This document shows, in pieces, positions 43,523-49,907 of a stretch of 64,000 nucleotides of DNA. Source of the DNA: Halobacteriales archaeon YIM A00010 (GTDB lineage Archaea > Halobacteriota > Halobacteria > Halobacteriales > Haloarculaceae). How positions within the stretch are numbered: the first letter of the stretch is position 1; each line of letters starts with the position of its first letter. The position numbers were made by a program, and so were the translations under genes. The notes beneath the pieces were generated by a model, which worked only from the letters and a program-made list of their open reading frames with translations, did not search any database and was not told the DNA's origin. The stretch lies in NCBI GenBank assembly GCA_025041175.1, contig JAKCFJ010000001.1, forward strand, positions 1,240,001 through 1,304,000, read 5' to 3'.

Positions 43523-44269
43523 GTGGTCATCCCTATCGGGAAGACGTCTGGCGGCTTGGAGCTGCTTCGGGCTCGATACCGAGCTGGGGTCCAATTAGAG
43601 GACGGATCCGCCGAAATGATCGCCAGTATGGCCCTCGGCACCGGTACCTTCGGTGCGATGTACATCTGCCTCTACATCTTCGGGTACCAGTTGGCTGGCG
43701 ACCTCGAAGATCGCCGCTACGAAGCGTATCGATCGATGCCCCCCGCTCCTTCAGCTGATCTCTCTGGACGAATGCTGAGCGGAGTTGTCCTTGCAGGCGT
43801 TACGTTCATCTTAACGATTCTCGCTGGCGTCTACACGGGTGCCTCGTTCGGGCTCCGCGGGCTCATGTCGATTCCGATCGTCCTTCTTGCGTTCGTTGTA
43901 ACCTGTGTTTTCTGGATGATCGTCGCAATGCCGGTCATTCTGTACGCACAGAACGAACGAGTTGCGGAGTATGCCGTGCCGATGATCGCAATTGTGGGCT
44001 ACATTGGGACGGGGCTCAATGGGGTGAACACCGAACTGTCGCCGATCGACGGCGAGATACTGACGTACCTACCAAATGCCCTCCCAACGCGTTTGATCAT
44101 CTATCATCTCGTTCCCGGTGGGGATTGGGCTGATATCGGCGTGGCACCGCCTGCGTTGCCCACTGGCCCCGAGTACGTCGCCTTGCTGGTCGTCTACGGG
44201 CTCCTCGCACTCGCTGTCGGAACCGTCCTGACGACGAGAGTGCTGTACCGACGGGAGTGGTGGCCATGA
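43523..44269 (+). CDS. ABC-2 type transporter permease, possibly N-terminally short
   Basis: The 248-residue frame has five or six hydrophobic segments: MIASMALGTGTFGAMYICLY, LSGVVLAGVTFILTILAGVY, IPIVLLAFVVTCVFWMIVAM, VPMIAIVGYIGTGLNGV and YVALLVVYGLLALAVGTVLT. The polar loop DLEDRRYEAYRSMPPAPSADLSG is typical of haloarchaeal ABC-2 permeases. There is no ATG near the beginning; only GTG at 43523 or ATG at 43616 fit, and relatives normally have one more N-terminal helix. It overlaps the ATPase gene by four bases. The exported substrate is unknown. Confidence 0.8.
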   Translation: MVIPIGKTSGGLELLRARYRAGVQLEDGSAEMIASMALGTGTFGAMYICLYIFGYQLAGDLEDRRYEAYRSMPPAPSADLSGRMLSGVVLAGVTFILTILAGVYTGASFGLRGLMSIPIVLLAFVVTCVFWMIVAMPVILYAQNERVAEYAVPMIAIVGYIGTGLNGVNTELSPIDGEILTYLPNALPTRLIIYHLVPGGDWADIGVAPPALPTGPEYVALLVVYGLLALAVGTVLTTRVLYRREWWP

Positions 44270-45138
44270 AACAACCGTGTATCGAAGCTACTGATCTCGA
44301 GAAATCCTTCGATGACGAGCTCGTGCTTAAGGGCGTCAACCTCAGTGTCAGGACGGGGGAACTACTCGCGGTGATGGGACCGAACGGCGTCGGTAAATCA
44401 GTGCTGTTCTCGTGTCTGGCTGGTAGCGAAATCCCCACGCACGGCTCAATTACCGTTCTCGACGAACCAGCCACCGATCGATCTGTCACGACGAGCTTTC
44501 TGTTACAGGACGCGCTCTGTCTCGAGCGGCTCACCGGCCAGGAGAACATCCGATTCTACAGTCAGCTGCACCCCATGTTCACCGACGACTGGCAGGAATA
44601 CGTGGAAGTGCTAGGTCTCGTTGATGACCTCGACAAACGTGTCGAACAGTATTCCGGAGGCATGAAGCGCAAACTCGAGTTGACGATTGCCCTGAGCATC
44701 GATGTCCCGATCTACCTGCTCGATGAGCCGACCGCTGCCCTCGACCTGACGGTGATTCAGGAAGTCCACCGTCTGCTCCGAGAGAAACAAGACGAGGGGA
44801 AGACGATCGTCATCTCGAGTCACAGTCCGATGGACGCTGATATCGCTGATCGCATCGCGTTTGTGGCCGATGGTCGTGTCGTGGCGATGGGTGAGCCTGA
44901 CGAACTGTTCGATGCGGTACCGCCGGTGCTCGAAACGACTGGGACCAACGCCGACGCTCTCACTGGGATGGCAGTAGGCGGCCAGCTGTTCCCCAGTGAT
45001 GGGGGAGTTCGAGCGTTTTCGCCGCCGGACGAACCGATACCGACAGCGGACATGGAGGCGGTGACCCGTCTCGATCGGCCGACGTACACCGATCTGTTTA
45101 ACTATTATACAATCGATATCAGAGATATAAATAAGTGA
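44266..45138 (+). CDS. ABC transporter ATPase (ABC-2 exporter)
   Basis: The 290-residue product has Walker A GPNGVGKSVLF, signature QYSGGMKRKLELTIALSIDV, Walker B PIYLLDEPTAALDLTVIQEV and the switch His in VISSHSPMDADIADRI. The C-terminal 60 residues vary and end IDIRDINK. The ATG at 44266 overlaps the permease stop (ATGA). With the permease, a membrane protein and a small regulator it forms a four-gene export operon, in the CcmA/NatA style. Function unassigned. Confidence 0.93.
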   Translation: MKQPCIEATDLEKSFDDELVLKGVNLSVRTGELLAVMGPNGVGKSVLFSCLAGSEIPTHGSITVLDEPATDRSVTTSFLLQDALCLERLTGQENIRFYSQLHPMFTDDWQEYVEVLGLVDDLDKRVEQYSGGMKRKLELTIALSIDVPIYLLDEPTAALDLTVIQEVHRLLREKQDEGKTIVISSHSPMDADIADRIAFVADGRVVAMGEPDELFDAVPPVLETTGTNADALTGMAVGGQLFPSDGGVRAFSPPDEPIPTADMEAVTRLDRPTYTDLFNYYTIDIRDINK

Positions 45139-45146
45139 TTGAGAGA

Positions 45147-45764
45147 ATGAACGACACAGATATCGACAAAGATGTCCTCGAGAAAGAGCTGGGTCAGATC
45201 AAACAGGCCGTCGGTCTGCAGGACGAGTACCCCTACTGGTGGCGCTGGTGGCTTGTCGAAGGCGTCGGTGTCGGTATTACTCTTCCACTCCTCGAGTGGG
45301 GGGTTCGTGAGGGGTTCTCACTGGTGCTCATTGGCGCGCTCATCGCTGTCTTCGTCGCCCACCAGCTCGCGCTGTACCACATCCAATCGAGCTACGAACC
45401 ACCGACGACTGGCATCCCGAGCTGGGGAACGTGGCACCTCGCGTTCTTTGCCGCGCTCGGCGCGGTCCTCGTCGGGATGAATCCGTTTTTGGACGCAATC
45501 GATACGAGCGAGACGCTCGTCCTCTGGCTCGTGGTCGTTGGTGGACTCCTCGGCCTCGGCTATCTGTCTCTCGGACAGTTGCTAGAGGCCCACAATATCA
45601 GAAAAGCCGACAGATACGCCTTCTACGCTGGTGGTATCTGGATACTCGGACTGGTCGCAGTCATCCCGTACGTTCCGCAGGTGTACGGCTGGGCCTTTAC
45701 TATCTTTGGCGTGAGCTACGCCTGTTACTGTATCGTCGCATACGTCATCCTCTCACGAACGTAG
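45147..45764 (+). CDS. multi-helix membrane protein of the ABC operon, 205 aa
   Basis: The product starts MNDTDIDKDVLEKELGQIKQ, an acidic helical head, then YWWRWWLVEG and about six hydrophobic segments (ITLPLLEWG, FSLVLIGALIAVFVAHQLAL, WHLAFFAALGAVLVGM, LVLWLVVVGGLLGLGYLSLG, AFYAGGIWILGLVAVIPYVP, TIFGVSYACYCIVAYVIL). It starts 8 bases after the ATPase stop and ends one base before the HTH gene. It may be an accessory membrane partner. Family not recognised. Confidence 0.85.
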   Translation: MNDTDIDKDVLEKELGQIKQAVGLQDEYPYWWRWWLVEGVGVGITLPLLEWGVREGFSLVLIGALIAVFVAHQLALYHIQSSYEPPTTGIPSWGTWHLAFFAALGAVLVGMNPFLDAIDTSETLVLWLVVVGGLLGLGYLSLGQLLEAHNIRKADRYAFYAGGIWILGLVAVIPYVPQVYGWAFTIFGVSYACYCIVAYVILSRT

Positions 45765-45765
45765 T

Positions 45766-46053
45766 ATGGAATTCGACAAACTTGTCCACCAACCGACGCG
45801 TTTGCAGATATTCGCCCACCTGTACGCACACGGCGAGACGCGTTTCACTGACCTCCAGGCAAACCTCGACATCACGGAGGGAAACCTGGCAAGCCACATT
45901 GGGAAGATGGAAGACGCCGAGTGTGTTGCCGTCGAAAAACAGTTCGTCGACCGAAAACCGCAGACGACGTATCAGCTCACCGATCGAGGAGAGGAGCTGT
46001 TCGAGTCACACGTACAGACACTCGAACGTTTGATTTCCGATTTTGATACCTGA
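45766..46053 (+). CDS. small winged-helix regulator of the ABC operon
   Basis: The 95-residue product is a MarR/ArsR-type winged helix: LVHQPTRLQIFAHLYAHGET, RFTDLQANLDITEGNLASHIGKMEDAECV, and a wing KPQTTYQLTDRGEELFESHV. This type (HTH_34-like) is common beside ABC-2 exporters and membrane proteins. The gene starts one base after the membrane protein stop, so it is co-transcribed and probably controls its own operon. Confidence 0.9.
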   Translation: MEFDKLVHQPTRLQIFAHLYAHGETRFTDLQANLDITEGNLASHIGKMEDAECVAVEKQFVDRKPQTTYQLTDRGEELFESHVQTLERLISDFDT

Positions 46054-46383
46054 TCCAACTCTGCAATTGCTCTTCTCTGTACGTCTGCGGTTACCGATGG
46101 ACCGTGTACAGGTTGTATCAAGGACCGTTGTTCCACACGTCCCAAACTGCTCACTGCGATCGTGACGTGCTCAATAGGTTCCGTGATCGAACGTACCGAC
46201 CACGGGTGGGTGCCCATTACGATCACCACTGGCTGTTCACCCGAAACGATCAGTTGGAGTCCTACAAACGATTTCGGACCGGCTGGCCTACCAGCCGTTA
46301 CGAACGACCCCACTCTCCGTGAATCGTACACACGGAAGAACAGCACGGTTGGGGAGTGATGCATCCCTTGTGCGCACGAGGAT
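46054..46383. other. intergenic region between two regulator genes
   Basis: About 330 bases between convergent genes. A short hairpin CGGCTGGCCTACCAGCCG lies near 46279-46296 and might end one of the transcripts. I see no convincing gene. Confidence 0.45.
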
Positions 46384-46746
46384 CTACTGCTGAGTGGCAC
46401 TAACGAGATCGTGGATCTCTGCAGCGCGGCTCTCGGACGTGACGAACCGCGAGAACACCCACGACAGTTGGTTCACGATGGCGTCGTGGCCAGCCTCGGT
46501 CAGCGCGTACTCGTTCGTTCGCTTATCGAGTTCGCTTTTCTCGACGAGTCCCATCTCGACGAGATCGTCGAGATTCGGATAGAGTCGCCCGTGGTTGACA
46601 TCCGAGCCGTCATACTCTTCTAGCTCGCGCTTGATCGCCAGCCCGTAGCGAGCCTCCTCCGAGAGGATGGCGAGAATCCTCTGTTGGAACGCCGTCAGTT
46701 CGTACGCAATACCTGATTCCTCCTCGTCTGGCACTGTCACCGACAT
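46384..46746 (-). CDS. PadR family transcriptional regulator
   Basis: The 120-residue product has the PadR winged helix: YELTAFQQRILAILSEEARY, GLAIKRELEEYDGSDVNHGRLYPNLDDLVEMGLVEKSE and a wing RTNEYALTEAG, then a C-terminal dimerisation helix. PadR proteins usually repress a nearby transporter or stress gene. It is convergent with the ABC operon and read in the same direction as tatC beyond it. The target is not identifiable. Confidence 0.92.
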   Translation of the reverse strand: MSVTVPDEEESGIAYELTAFQQRILAILSEEARYGLAIKRELEEYDGSDVNHGRLYPNLDDLVEMGLVEKSELDKRTNEYALTEAGHDAIVNQLSWVFSRFVTSESRAAEIHDLVSATQQ

Positions 46747-46933: not shown

Positions 46934-49444
46934 TCACCCGCGCTGGGTCCACTTGAGGAGAAGCAGCGTGGATTCGAAGAGGACCACCATGGAGAGCGCC
47001 ACGATGATCGGGGCCATGCCAGTTGGATCCGGGTTGGTGATGAACGCCAGACCGGCGAAGCCACCCCAGAAGTACAGTCGCCGATCAGTGAGCCACGACC
47101 GGCTCGTCACCCCCATCATGACGGCGAGCATAATGAACAGGGGGATCTGGAAGATGAGGGCAAAAAAGCCCATCATGAGGAGCATCAGCCCGAACGTATC
47201 GGACAGCCCGAATGCGATTTCGGCGGTCCCCTGGGTGTAGCCCAGAAAGTAGACGAAGATGAGGGGCAGGACCACGAAGAAGGCGAACGCGACACCGAGC
47301 GTGGAAAGTATGAGACTCGTTGGGATTGCAGCGATGTAATACCGCCGTTCACGTGGATACAGCCCCGGCCGCATGAACAGATACGTCTCATAGACGAACA
47401 CCGGCATAGCGATAACGAATCCAGCGAGCGTTGCGACTTTCAGCCGTGCGAGCACGAGCGCGAGCGGGCGATACACCCGGGGCTGAACCACGTCTGTGCT
47501 CCCCAGAGCGAGAATCGAATACCAGATCTCATTGATGAGCCGGTCGGCAAACGGAAACGTGAGTGCGCTCACAATGGCCATGACCACGACGACGACCAAC
47601 ACCCGGCGGACCATCTCTTCGATGTGGGCGCTCAAAGGCATCTCCTGGTCTTCGGTCGGTCCACTCGGAACGAGCGAATCATCCTCTGAACCCGCCTCTG
47701 AGCCCGCAACGTCGGGGGTTGCTACCGTGTCCTTTGTGAGAGTCCCTCCATCCGATTTCCTCGGTTCTCCTGTCTCGGAGGAGTCAGCCGGGGAGGACGT
47801 GCCCGCCGCAGTCGAACTCGTATCGTCTGCTATCGATGTCGAATCCGCACTGGTTGTGGGTGATGATCCGGTGTCTCGATCGTCGTCGTTCCGGCCCGAC
47901 TGAGAGGTCGACTGACGCTTCCACGGTACCTCAGAGACACCACCCATTTGAGACCCTTCGGAGGGTCCATCCGACGCTTCCTCTTCTGAGTGATTTTGTT
48001 CCCGCGAGGACGATTGAGACGCGTCAGTGTCTTGATTTCGTGACGGTGATTGCTCTGTGTCAGAATTCGGATCTCGAGCACCCGCTGGATCTGACTTCGA
48101 CCCTCGATCTCGGGCACTGCGCCGATCCGTATCAGAGAGACGATTCCGCGAACTCGTCAGATCTGAATTCGAGCTCCGATCGCGGGAACTCCTTGGATCC
48201 GACTCCGACTCCGACTCTCGATTCCGAGCACTACGCCGATCCGTATCAGAGGGACGATTCCGCGAACTCGTCAGATCCGGCTTCGACTCCCGATTGTGGG
48301 CGTTCGTTGGACCCGACCCTGACTCCCGATTCCACGAATTCGTCGGGTCTGAATTCGAATTTCGATTGCGGGAGCTCGATGGATCCGACTCCGACCCTCG
48401 ATTCCGTGAACTCGTCAGATCTGAATTCGACTCCCGATTGTGGGCGTTTGTCGGATCCGACTCCGATCCCCGATCTCGGGCACTGCGCCGATCCGTATCA
48501 GAGAGACGATTCCGCGAACTCGTCAGATCTGAATTCGAGCTCCGATCGCGGGAACTCCTTGGATCCGACTCCGACTCCGACTCTCGATTCCGAGCACTAC
48601 GCCGATCCGTATCAGAGGGACGATTCCGCGAACTCGTCAGATCCGGCTTCGACTCCCGATTGTGGGAGTTTGTCGGATCCGACTTCGACCCTCGATCGCG
48701 GGAGCTCGTTGGACTTGAATTCGAGCTCCGATCGCGGGAACTCCTTGGATCCGACTCCGACTCCGACTCTCGATTCCGAGCACTACGCCGATCCGTATCA
48801 GAGGGACGATTCCGCGAACTCGTCAGATCTGAATTCGACCCTCGATCACGGGAGCTCGTTGGACCCGACTTCGAACCCCGATCTCGGGCACTGCGCCGAT
48901 TCGTATCAGAGGGCCGATCCCGGGACCACCCTGTGCCGGCATTGCGGTCCTGGGTGGACGTCGATCCGGAGTTCGTGCCGCGCTCTTGTGAGGCCCTCCG
49001 GTCAGAATCCGCATCACTGCTCCGAGACGACGATCGAGCGCGGTCTCTCGTTCGTCTCGTGTTCTCCGTCTCCCGATCCGATGCAGTCGACCGTCGGCGA
49101 TCGTGTGCAGAGTTCCGAGAACGAGACGCGTCTCGATTCCTCGAACTCGGCGTGGACGACCGTCTCTTTGAAGACGATTCGGTTGTGTCGTCACGACCAC
49201 GAACGTCCGAACGCAGATCGGTCTCGTCCCCACGATCGAAACCATCGTTTGGGGAGTCCGAACCGGAACGGGGAGAATCCTCGTCTAGCTCATCGAAGAA
49301 ACCGGAATCATCGGAGAAGACGAAACTATCCTGATCCCGTGTCTCATCGTCGGATGTATCTTCCCACGAATCATCGCCATCCGCCGGCTCATCGCGGGAC
49401 CTGCGTCCGTCGTCTCCGCCCATTACGGTACTCTGGTATCCCAT
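46934..49444 (-). CDS. tatC: Sec-independent translocase TatC with giant Ser/Arg/Asp repeat N-terminus
   Basis: Residues about 600-836 are a complete TatC: MPLSAHIEEMVRRVLVVVVV (conserved His-Ile-Glu-Glu head), six hydrophobic segments, and FITNPDPTGMAPIIVALSMV. TatC is the receptor for folded, twin-arginine proteins, the dominant export route in haloarchaea. The preceding 600 residues are hydrophilic: an acidic head, then about 26 tandem 12-residue repeats of the type SSRNRxSDTDRR or SSRDRSSNSDLT, then a Ser/Thr/Asp linker. The ATG at 49444 (or 49423) is supported by a TATA-like GATATTTTTG upstream. An internal start at 47641 (MPLSAH) cannot be excluded. Confidence 0.93.
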   Translation of the reverse strand: MGYQSTVMGGDDGRRSRDEPADGDDSWEDTSDDETRDQDSFVFSDDSGFFDELDEDSPRSGSDSPNDGFDRGDETDLRSDVRGRDDTTESSSKRRSSTPSSRNRDASRSRNSAHDRRRSTASDRETENTRRTRDRARSSSRSSDADSDRRASQERGTNSGSTSTQDRNAGTGWSRDRPSDTNRRSARDRGSKSGPTSSRDRGSNSDLTSSRNRPSDTDRRSARNRESESESDPRSSRDRSSNSSPTSSRDRGSKSDPTNSHNRESKPDLTSSRNRPSDTDRRSARNRESESESDPRSSRDRSSNSDLTSSRNRLSDTDRRSARDRGSESDPTNAHNRESNSDLTSSRNRGSESDPSSSRNRNSNSDPTNSWNRESGSGPTNAHNRESKPDLTSSRNRPSDTDRRSARNRESESESDPRSSRDRSSNSDLTSSRNRLSDTDRRSARDRGSKSDPAGARDPNSDTEQSPSRNQDTDASQSSSREQNHSEEEASDGPSEGSQMGGVSEVPWKRQSTSQSGRNDDDRDTGSSPTTSADSTSIADDTSSTAAGTSSPADSSETGEPRKSDGGTLTKDTVATPDVAGSEAGSEDDSLVPSGPTEDQEMPLSAHIEEMVRRVLVVVVVMAIVSALTFPFADRLINEIWYSILALGSTDVVQPRVYRPLALVLARLKVATLAGFVIAMPVFVYETYLFMRPGLYPRERRYYIAAIPTSLILSTLGVAFAFFVVLPLIFVYFLGYTQGTAEIAFGLSDTFGLMLLMMGFFALIFQIPLFIMLAVMMGVTSRSWLTDRRLYFWGGFAGLAFITNPDPTGMAPIIVALSMVVLFESTLLLLKWTQRG
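47987..48931 (-). repeat. 36-bp coding repeats in tatC
   Basis: The minus strand encodes about 26 tandem units of 12 codons (a few of 14) with consensus (T/R)-S-(S/A)-R-(N/D)-R-x-S-(D/N/E)-(S/T)-D-(P/L/R). Larger blocks recur almost identically at DNA level, for example TCAGAGAGACGATTCCGCG or TCAGAGGGACGATTCCGCG at 48135, 48248, 48501 and 48613. There are no spacers of unique sequence. Confidence 0.9.
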
Positions 49445-49907
49445 CGATTGTAAGCCTTCTCACCCGATAGCACGCGCACAAAAATATCAACATAAGTATA
49501 GCACGCTCGACCTCCTTGTACAGTTCCGTATTCGTTTCTAGAACAGTAGGAAAGCAATCGGGAACCACCACGAGCGATGAATCGTGGTTGCAGGGGCCTC
49601 CAGCGGGAATCAACTCCTCGCTCTGGGACGTGTTAGCTTTGGGCTACAAAAACTACGTGGATGAGAGAAATCAGAATGGAACACAGGAGAATGACAAATA
49701 CACGATCGATAGCGAACGATCCACGTTTCCAGTTATGTCCGCTTTCGTGTTCGTTCGGTACCCGTTCGTGACGCACTCGATAGCCTCCCTGCGGTCGTTC
49801 GTTCCAGCGGTTCCAGGAGATCCATCCGGAGTCACCGCGATCGATGCACGGGGACGACCACCAATCATTATTGTTCGACTCGTCGTATCCGCACCCGGAG
49901 ACAGATA
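49445..49907. other. intergenic region between tatC and the SDR gene
   Basis: About 460 bases. It contains the tatC promoter side (AT-rich around 49480-49500), a hairpin ACCACGA/TCGTGGT with loop GCGATGAA at 49567-49588 resembling IS200/IS605-type ends, and the SDR promoter side. I see no convincing gene. Confidence 0.5.

Follow-up and report, generated by a model that had tools for sequence, protein, structure and literature searches.

The 64,000-nucleotide stretch of Halobacteriales archaeon YIM A00010 analyzed here (the window; positions are counted from its first letter) carries a tatC gene on the reverse strand, at 46934-49444, as a single open frame of 836 amino acids (aa). The six-helix membrane receptor occupies the last 235 of these (residues 602-836, positions 46937..47641, reverse strand), as a first-pass annotation of this DNA had estimated. 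PF00902 matches the core at 138.9 bits (cut-off, 25.1) over profile positions 2-207 of 208, and NCBIfam TIGR00945 aligns at full length (1-215) with 118.1 bits, below its curated 132.7. The core also matches 4b4a and 4hts in phmmer, and a confident model of residues 602-836 has the TatC fold, with Foldseek recovering 4hts, 4b4a, and 9e01 at TM scores by target of 0.65-0.80 (4hts: E 6.1e-8, TM 0.80). E610 and E699 are invariant in an alignment of 44 sequences, R614 and D806 are likewise invariant in aligned TatC cores, and the core is intact. E699 aligns with the Glu of LY.HE(R/K)R in 4b4a and 9dzz, and E610 with the Glu of H..EL. In E. coli TatC, E15 and E103 are the acidic residues of the signal-peptide site, and E610 corresponds to the N-terminal signal-site Glu. 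The product is thus a bona fide TatC, the single-domain haloarchaeal TatCo receptor; Tat is the chief export system of this archaeon and its close relatives.

As in four of five relatives, tatCo lies near SDR and mutL genes. On the other side of tatC, past its stop codon, an ABC transporter-like cluster (43523-46746) comprises a 248-aa membrane protein, an ATPase, and a 209-aa membrane protein, followed on the opposite strand by a PadR regulator; no such cluster was seen around tatC in the loci of relatives.

At the other end of the gene, the open frame begins with Met1 (ATG, 49442-49444), initially taken as the gene limit, whereas translation very probably starts at Met8, at 49423, because TTACAA stands 30 nucleotides (nt) upstream of Met8 and two of the six genus members lack the upstream ATG (the Met1 codon is AGG in L031 and L034). 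The gene then spans 46934..49423 on the reverse strand and encodes 829 aa, including an N-terminal tail of 594 aa. TTACAA (49448-49453), the probable TATA box, is part of a promoter block, GTGAGAAGGCTTACAATCG (49445..49463, reverse strand), that all six genus members share without a difference, with one exact copy per genus genome; in all six species the distance of TTACAA to Met8 is 30 nt. A leaderless transcript should have its TATA box at about such a distance from the start. Among 122 distinct haloarchaeal tatCo genes, 61 have an in-frame start with TTACAA 26-35 nt before it, while six scrambled hexamers used as a control at the starts of the same genes gave 0. A promoter element, AGAAGGCTTACAA or AGAAAGTTTACAA, is kept across haloarchaeal genera at fixed spacing to the start codon (L001, L057, L063, L077, and many others), a conservation that is unusually strong for an archaeal promoter and usable to correct tatCo start annotation. 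First-ATG tail lengths are unreliable, since read-through inflates some of them (854 and 919 aa), and promoter-anchored starts are therefore used throughout.

The tail more than triples the receptor core’s length. It opens with a conserved head, MGGDDGRRSRD ... FVFSDDSGFFDELDED (49277..49423, all tail features being on the reverse strand), that could be aligned in six species, and continues with a Ser/Arg/Asp-rich nonrepeated part (48893..49276) that in translation has low pLDDT and no secondary structure. The tandem array follows at 48083..48892, with 22 units in 270 aa (unit types SSRNRPSDTDRR, SARNRESESESDPR, and SSRDRSSNSDLT). A Ser/Thr/Asp-rich linker region then leads to the core; it contains a VPWKR box (47915..47929), present in all six genus tails with VPWK invariant, and closes with the membrane-proximal linker SGPTEDQE (47642..47665), whose form GP..D[EQ]E is common to other haloarchaeal TatCo in alignments. 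The tail joins the core just before E610. The earlier description of an acidic head followed by 12-residue units rich in Ser, Arg, Asp, and Asn holds, with 22 recognizable units of about 12, sometimes 14, residues in place of about 26; likewise, the extension does measure close to the 600 residues first given (594 aa from Met8), yet the array makes up less than half of it.

Repetition in the tail far exceeds what chance would give: the longest peptide that recurs exactly has 67 aa, whereas none of 200 shuffles went beyond 8, and the array reaches TRF scores of 859-877. With 24% Ser, 15-16% Arg, and a net charge per residue of -0.04 (-0.14 to +0.06 across genus tails), the tail is a Ser/Arg/Asp polyampholyte with multivalent Arg and aromatic motifs. 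Acidic Trp segments are found in most genus members, L033 and L035 being without one near the N-terminus. AlphaFold2 assigns the whole tail no secondary structure and a pLDDT of mostly 35-47, which is consistent with disorder without proving it, and the very large disordered domain proposed at the outset is thus borne out as a prediction. Two further ideas about the tail were considered. RTX-like Ca2+ repeats were dropped, as the units of the window do not fit GGxGxD and the TatC N-terminus is cytosolic. A twin-Arg pseudosubstrate role of the conserved DGRR head remains an idea, with no hydrophobic stretch after DGRR.

Specific studies of haloarchaeal TatC or TatCo tails were not found in the open-access literature searched, and we compared the tail with those of other TatCo proteins. 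Those of Halomarina, Haloarcula, and Haloferax share an orthologous core (about 55-71% identical) and the same promoter box, and other haloarchaeal TatCo carry a tail in the same place, with a linker of the form GP..D[EQ]E-MPL. Across 55 other anchored TatCo proteins, this tail is 25-320 aa long (median, 143) and nearly always strongly acidic. In contrast, tails of the genus Halocatena/Actinarchaeum measure 389-594 aa, so that the window’s tail is longer than any other anchored haloarchaeal TatCo tail (the next longest outside the genus has 320 aa) and the expansion is as unusual as first supposed. Composition differs as well: Ser amounts to 17-30% and Arg to 9-16% in the genus, compared to 5-13% Ser and mostly low Arg in other tails of at least 60 aa, and the genus tails are near neutral, whereas nearly all others carry about -0.25 to -0.38 charges per residue, one other tail (L054) being near neutral too. 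The repeat span is about 140-270 aa in the genus and at most 64 aa elsewhere, short acidic arrays of up to that length occurring in 23 of 78 other TatCo tails from several genera. Repetition in TatCo tails is thus recurrent, and its length and composition are extreme in Halocatena/Actinarchaeum. The head and VPWK box are absent from the other haloarchaeal TatCo compared.

In the sister genus Halomarina, the same promoter block is followed by M[ST]GDERR, which resembles the MGGDDGRR of the window’s protein. These common N-terminal residues and the common promoter block tie the long tail to the ordinary haloarchaeal TatCo tail, of which it is a compositional variant and an enlarged version, and not a new kind of protein. 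Fusion with a neighboring gene was rejected on the same grounds: the agreement with Halomarina tatCo in promoter block and first residues points to the enlargement of an old tail. As a side observation, in Halomarina halobia the TatCo core is divided between two frames (open frames of 581 and 301 aa), which suggests a frameshift or a sequencing error.

Relatives within the genus include Halocatena pleomorpha, H. marina, Actinarchaeum halophilum, and strain YIM A00013, and the clade has been described with hyphae and spores (PMC10067837). All six distinct alleles have promoter-anchored, in-frame tails of 389-594 aa; with L031/L034 and L033/L035 as close pairs, the six species amount to about four independent lineages. 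Head, VPWK box, and linker align throughout the six. The repeat unit differs by lineage (about 12, 16, 20, 20, and 21 aa), the copy number ranges from about 7 to 22, and in H. pleomorpha TRF detects no array, so that a long array can be dispensed with. Of 391 genomes of the class, 5 yielded the head, all of them in Halocatena/Actinarchaeum, once each and always in TatC, and VPW occurred in no TatCo extension outside the genus among the set scanned; both the 391 genomes and the 122 tatCo genes are samples of the class. Within the genus, the tail belongs to TatCo only, as the two readable TatCt proteins start with a short, normal N-terminus, and a search of nine genomes brought up no paralogue or further copy of the tail, its own antisense match aside. 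A dispersed family of repeats was also discounted, since 464 kb of the same genome yielded nothing besides TatC by naive ORF calling (criteria per 100 aa: Ser, at least 15%; Arg plus Lys, at least 8%; Asp plus Glu, at least 15%; hydrophobics, at most 10%); a looser Ser/Arg window score was uninformative, being dominated by spurious antisense ORFs.

Some features of the wider Tat gene set were observed along the way. tatCo and tatCt lie far apart in six genomes of the genus, while in most other haloarchaea examined they are neighbors, usually in head-to-head orientation. A single TatA-family gene was found per genus genome, compared to two or three in Halomarina (two genomes) and in one further genome (G020). 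One of the relatives’ genomes, G006 (9% contamination), seems to contain the chromosome of G002 or a near copy of it, as matches on its contig C1 share G002 coordinates (e.g., 77485-78117 and 2520664-2521287).

Comparison of reading frames and substitution patterns indicates that the tail is very probably translated. Over the extension, the TatC frame alone is free of stops in all six species, and stops interrupt all five remaining frames in every species. Within the arrays, pN/pS in the coding frame is 0.58 in the window and 0.35, 0.19, 0.24, and 0.21 in four other arrays, while four of the remaining five frames give at least 0.82 in all arrays. The fifth, an antisense frame, shows 0.20-0.73; such low values are expected of the mirror frame should its third positions lie opposite the third positions of the coding frame. 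In comparisons between species, the head has a dN/dS of 0.12-0.41 and the linker from VPWK to the core one of 0.20-0.38, compared to 0.02-0.12 for the core itself. The tail is clearly under weaker constraint than the core; its middle aligns poorly between species, and dN/dS is only rough there. On the opposite strand, two open frames, 47836-49470 (544 aa) and 48057-49334 (425 aa), mirror the repeat array; the periodicity of the repeats accounts for their openness, and relatives do not preserve them as open frames.

A start of translation at about 47641, with the repeats never made, had been named at the outset as what would refute the reading of the extension; the open frame upstream would then be fortuitous. 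The length of the two antisense frames does mean that openness alone proves little. The Met at 47641 is the first core residue (MPL...), kept in at least 90% of aligned TatCo, and an in-frame tail precedes it in nearly all haloarchaea examined. The frame conservation in all six species, the excess of synonymous changes within arrays, and the tatCo promoter box 30 nt upstream of Met8 leave this start highly improbable; judged from sequence, no evidence favors it, and selection within the array and the position of the promoter contradict it.

As to what such a tail might do, we favor, with a probability of about 0.5, a flexible cytosolic spacer or brush that shows short binding motifs beside the TatC signal-peptide site; this is a joint figure for the identity of the extension as an enlarged TatCo tail and for its display role. 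An ancestral acidic cytosolic N-tail would have been enlarged in the Halocatena/Actinarchaeum lineage by tandem-repeat amplification, with its composition moving from strongly acidic to a Ser/Arg/Asp polyampholyte. The middle would act as a flexible spacer or brush that keeps the head and VPWK motifs at a distance from the membrane, and these motifs, next to the N-terminal signal-peptide site of TatC, could bind a partner or Tat precursors, concentrating them locally or helping to position the translocase. What suggests a spacer or brush is the contrast between a changing unit sequence and copy number and the features that persist, namely disorder, Ser/Arg content, a minimum length of 389 aa, and the two ends. 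The tether or scaffold role first put forward for the tail is a plausible one. The conserved ends may have other causes, e.g., translation initiation or membrane insertion. The main rival to the spacer or brush is tolerated filler: slippage would enlarge loosely constrained tails, selection would keep them soluble, disordered, and in frame, and the extra length would have no specific function. Fast turnover of unit type and copy number agrees with filler, as do the tails of other haloarchaea, whose range of 25 to 320 aa and short arrays in 23 of 78 mark expansion as recurrent and tolerated. We regard it as a real possibility, albeit one well short of even odds, given that all six alleles are long and none has decayed, that amino acid changes within arrays are selected against, and that all members of the genus retain the head and VPWK box, although compositional constraint alone could produce part of this.

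The closest functional analogue is found in the chloroplast proteins STT1 and STT2, whose disordered regions bind Tat signals via acidic WEEPD and LVP-W motifs and phase-separate (PMC8740050). By analogy, the tail could be a capture or condensate domain borne by the receptor, binding Tat precursors or clustering translocases by weak multivalent contacts. Besides this precedent, the position of the tail just before the signal-peptide-site residues, its polyampholyte character with multivalent Arg and aromatic motifs, and the invariant VPWK box together with acidic Trp segments in most genus members are in keeping with the idea. The acidic-Trp and VPWK motifs of the window resemble WEEPD and LVP-W only loosely, however, in a likeness that is short and may be due to chance, and two members (L033 and L035) are without an acidic Trp segment near the N-terminus. 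That disordered regions serve a Tat pathway is demonstrated for STT and conjectured here, and no homology is claimed: STT1 and STT2 are soluble, plant-specific ankyrin proteins of cpTat, whereas in the window the disordered part belongs to the receptor chain itself. Charge contacts are weakened at molar intracellular salt, which counts further against a condensate, and we consider this reading unlikely. An antenna built into the receptor, capturing Tat precursors or clustering translocases and so helping to place export in filamentous cells, seems doubtful to a similar degree. Finally, the tail had been called SR-like and its Ser residues proposed as sites of regulatory phosphorylation. The abundance of Ser and Arg and the disordered, low-complexity repeats do recall the RS domains of eukaryotic SR proteins; these hold at least about 40% RS/SR dipeptides over 50 or more residues, whereas RS/SR dipeptides account for 17% of array residues here and for 30% of the best 50-residue stretch. 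The likeness is therefore one of composition and not SR-like in the strict sense, the tail being RS-sparse and rich in Asp, Asn, and Thr, with no Pfam RNA-binding domain matched. The arrays of relatives consist of quite different units, and the seven genus genomes searched gave no Hanks-type kinase over the cut-off, only weak hits, which leaves phosphorylation unsupported; other Ser kinases are conceivable, and an SR-like switch appears very improbable.

The tail offers a concrete case of a predicted disordered domain on a translocase receptor, placed just before the N-terminal signal-peptide site. It is confined, in our sample, to one clade, a genus in which some haloarchaea form hyphae and spores (PMC10067837). 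The lengths and units found in six species form a natural allele series, and the tails of haloarchaeal TatCo emerge as a fast-evolving module.
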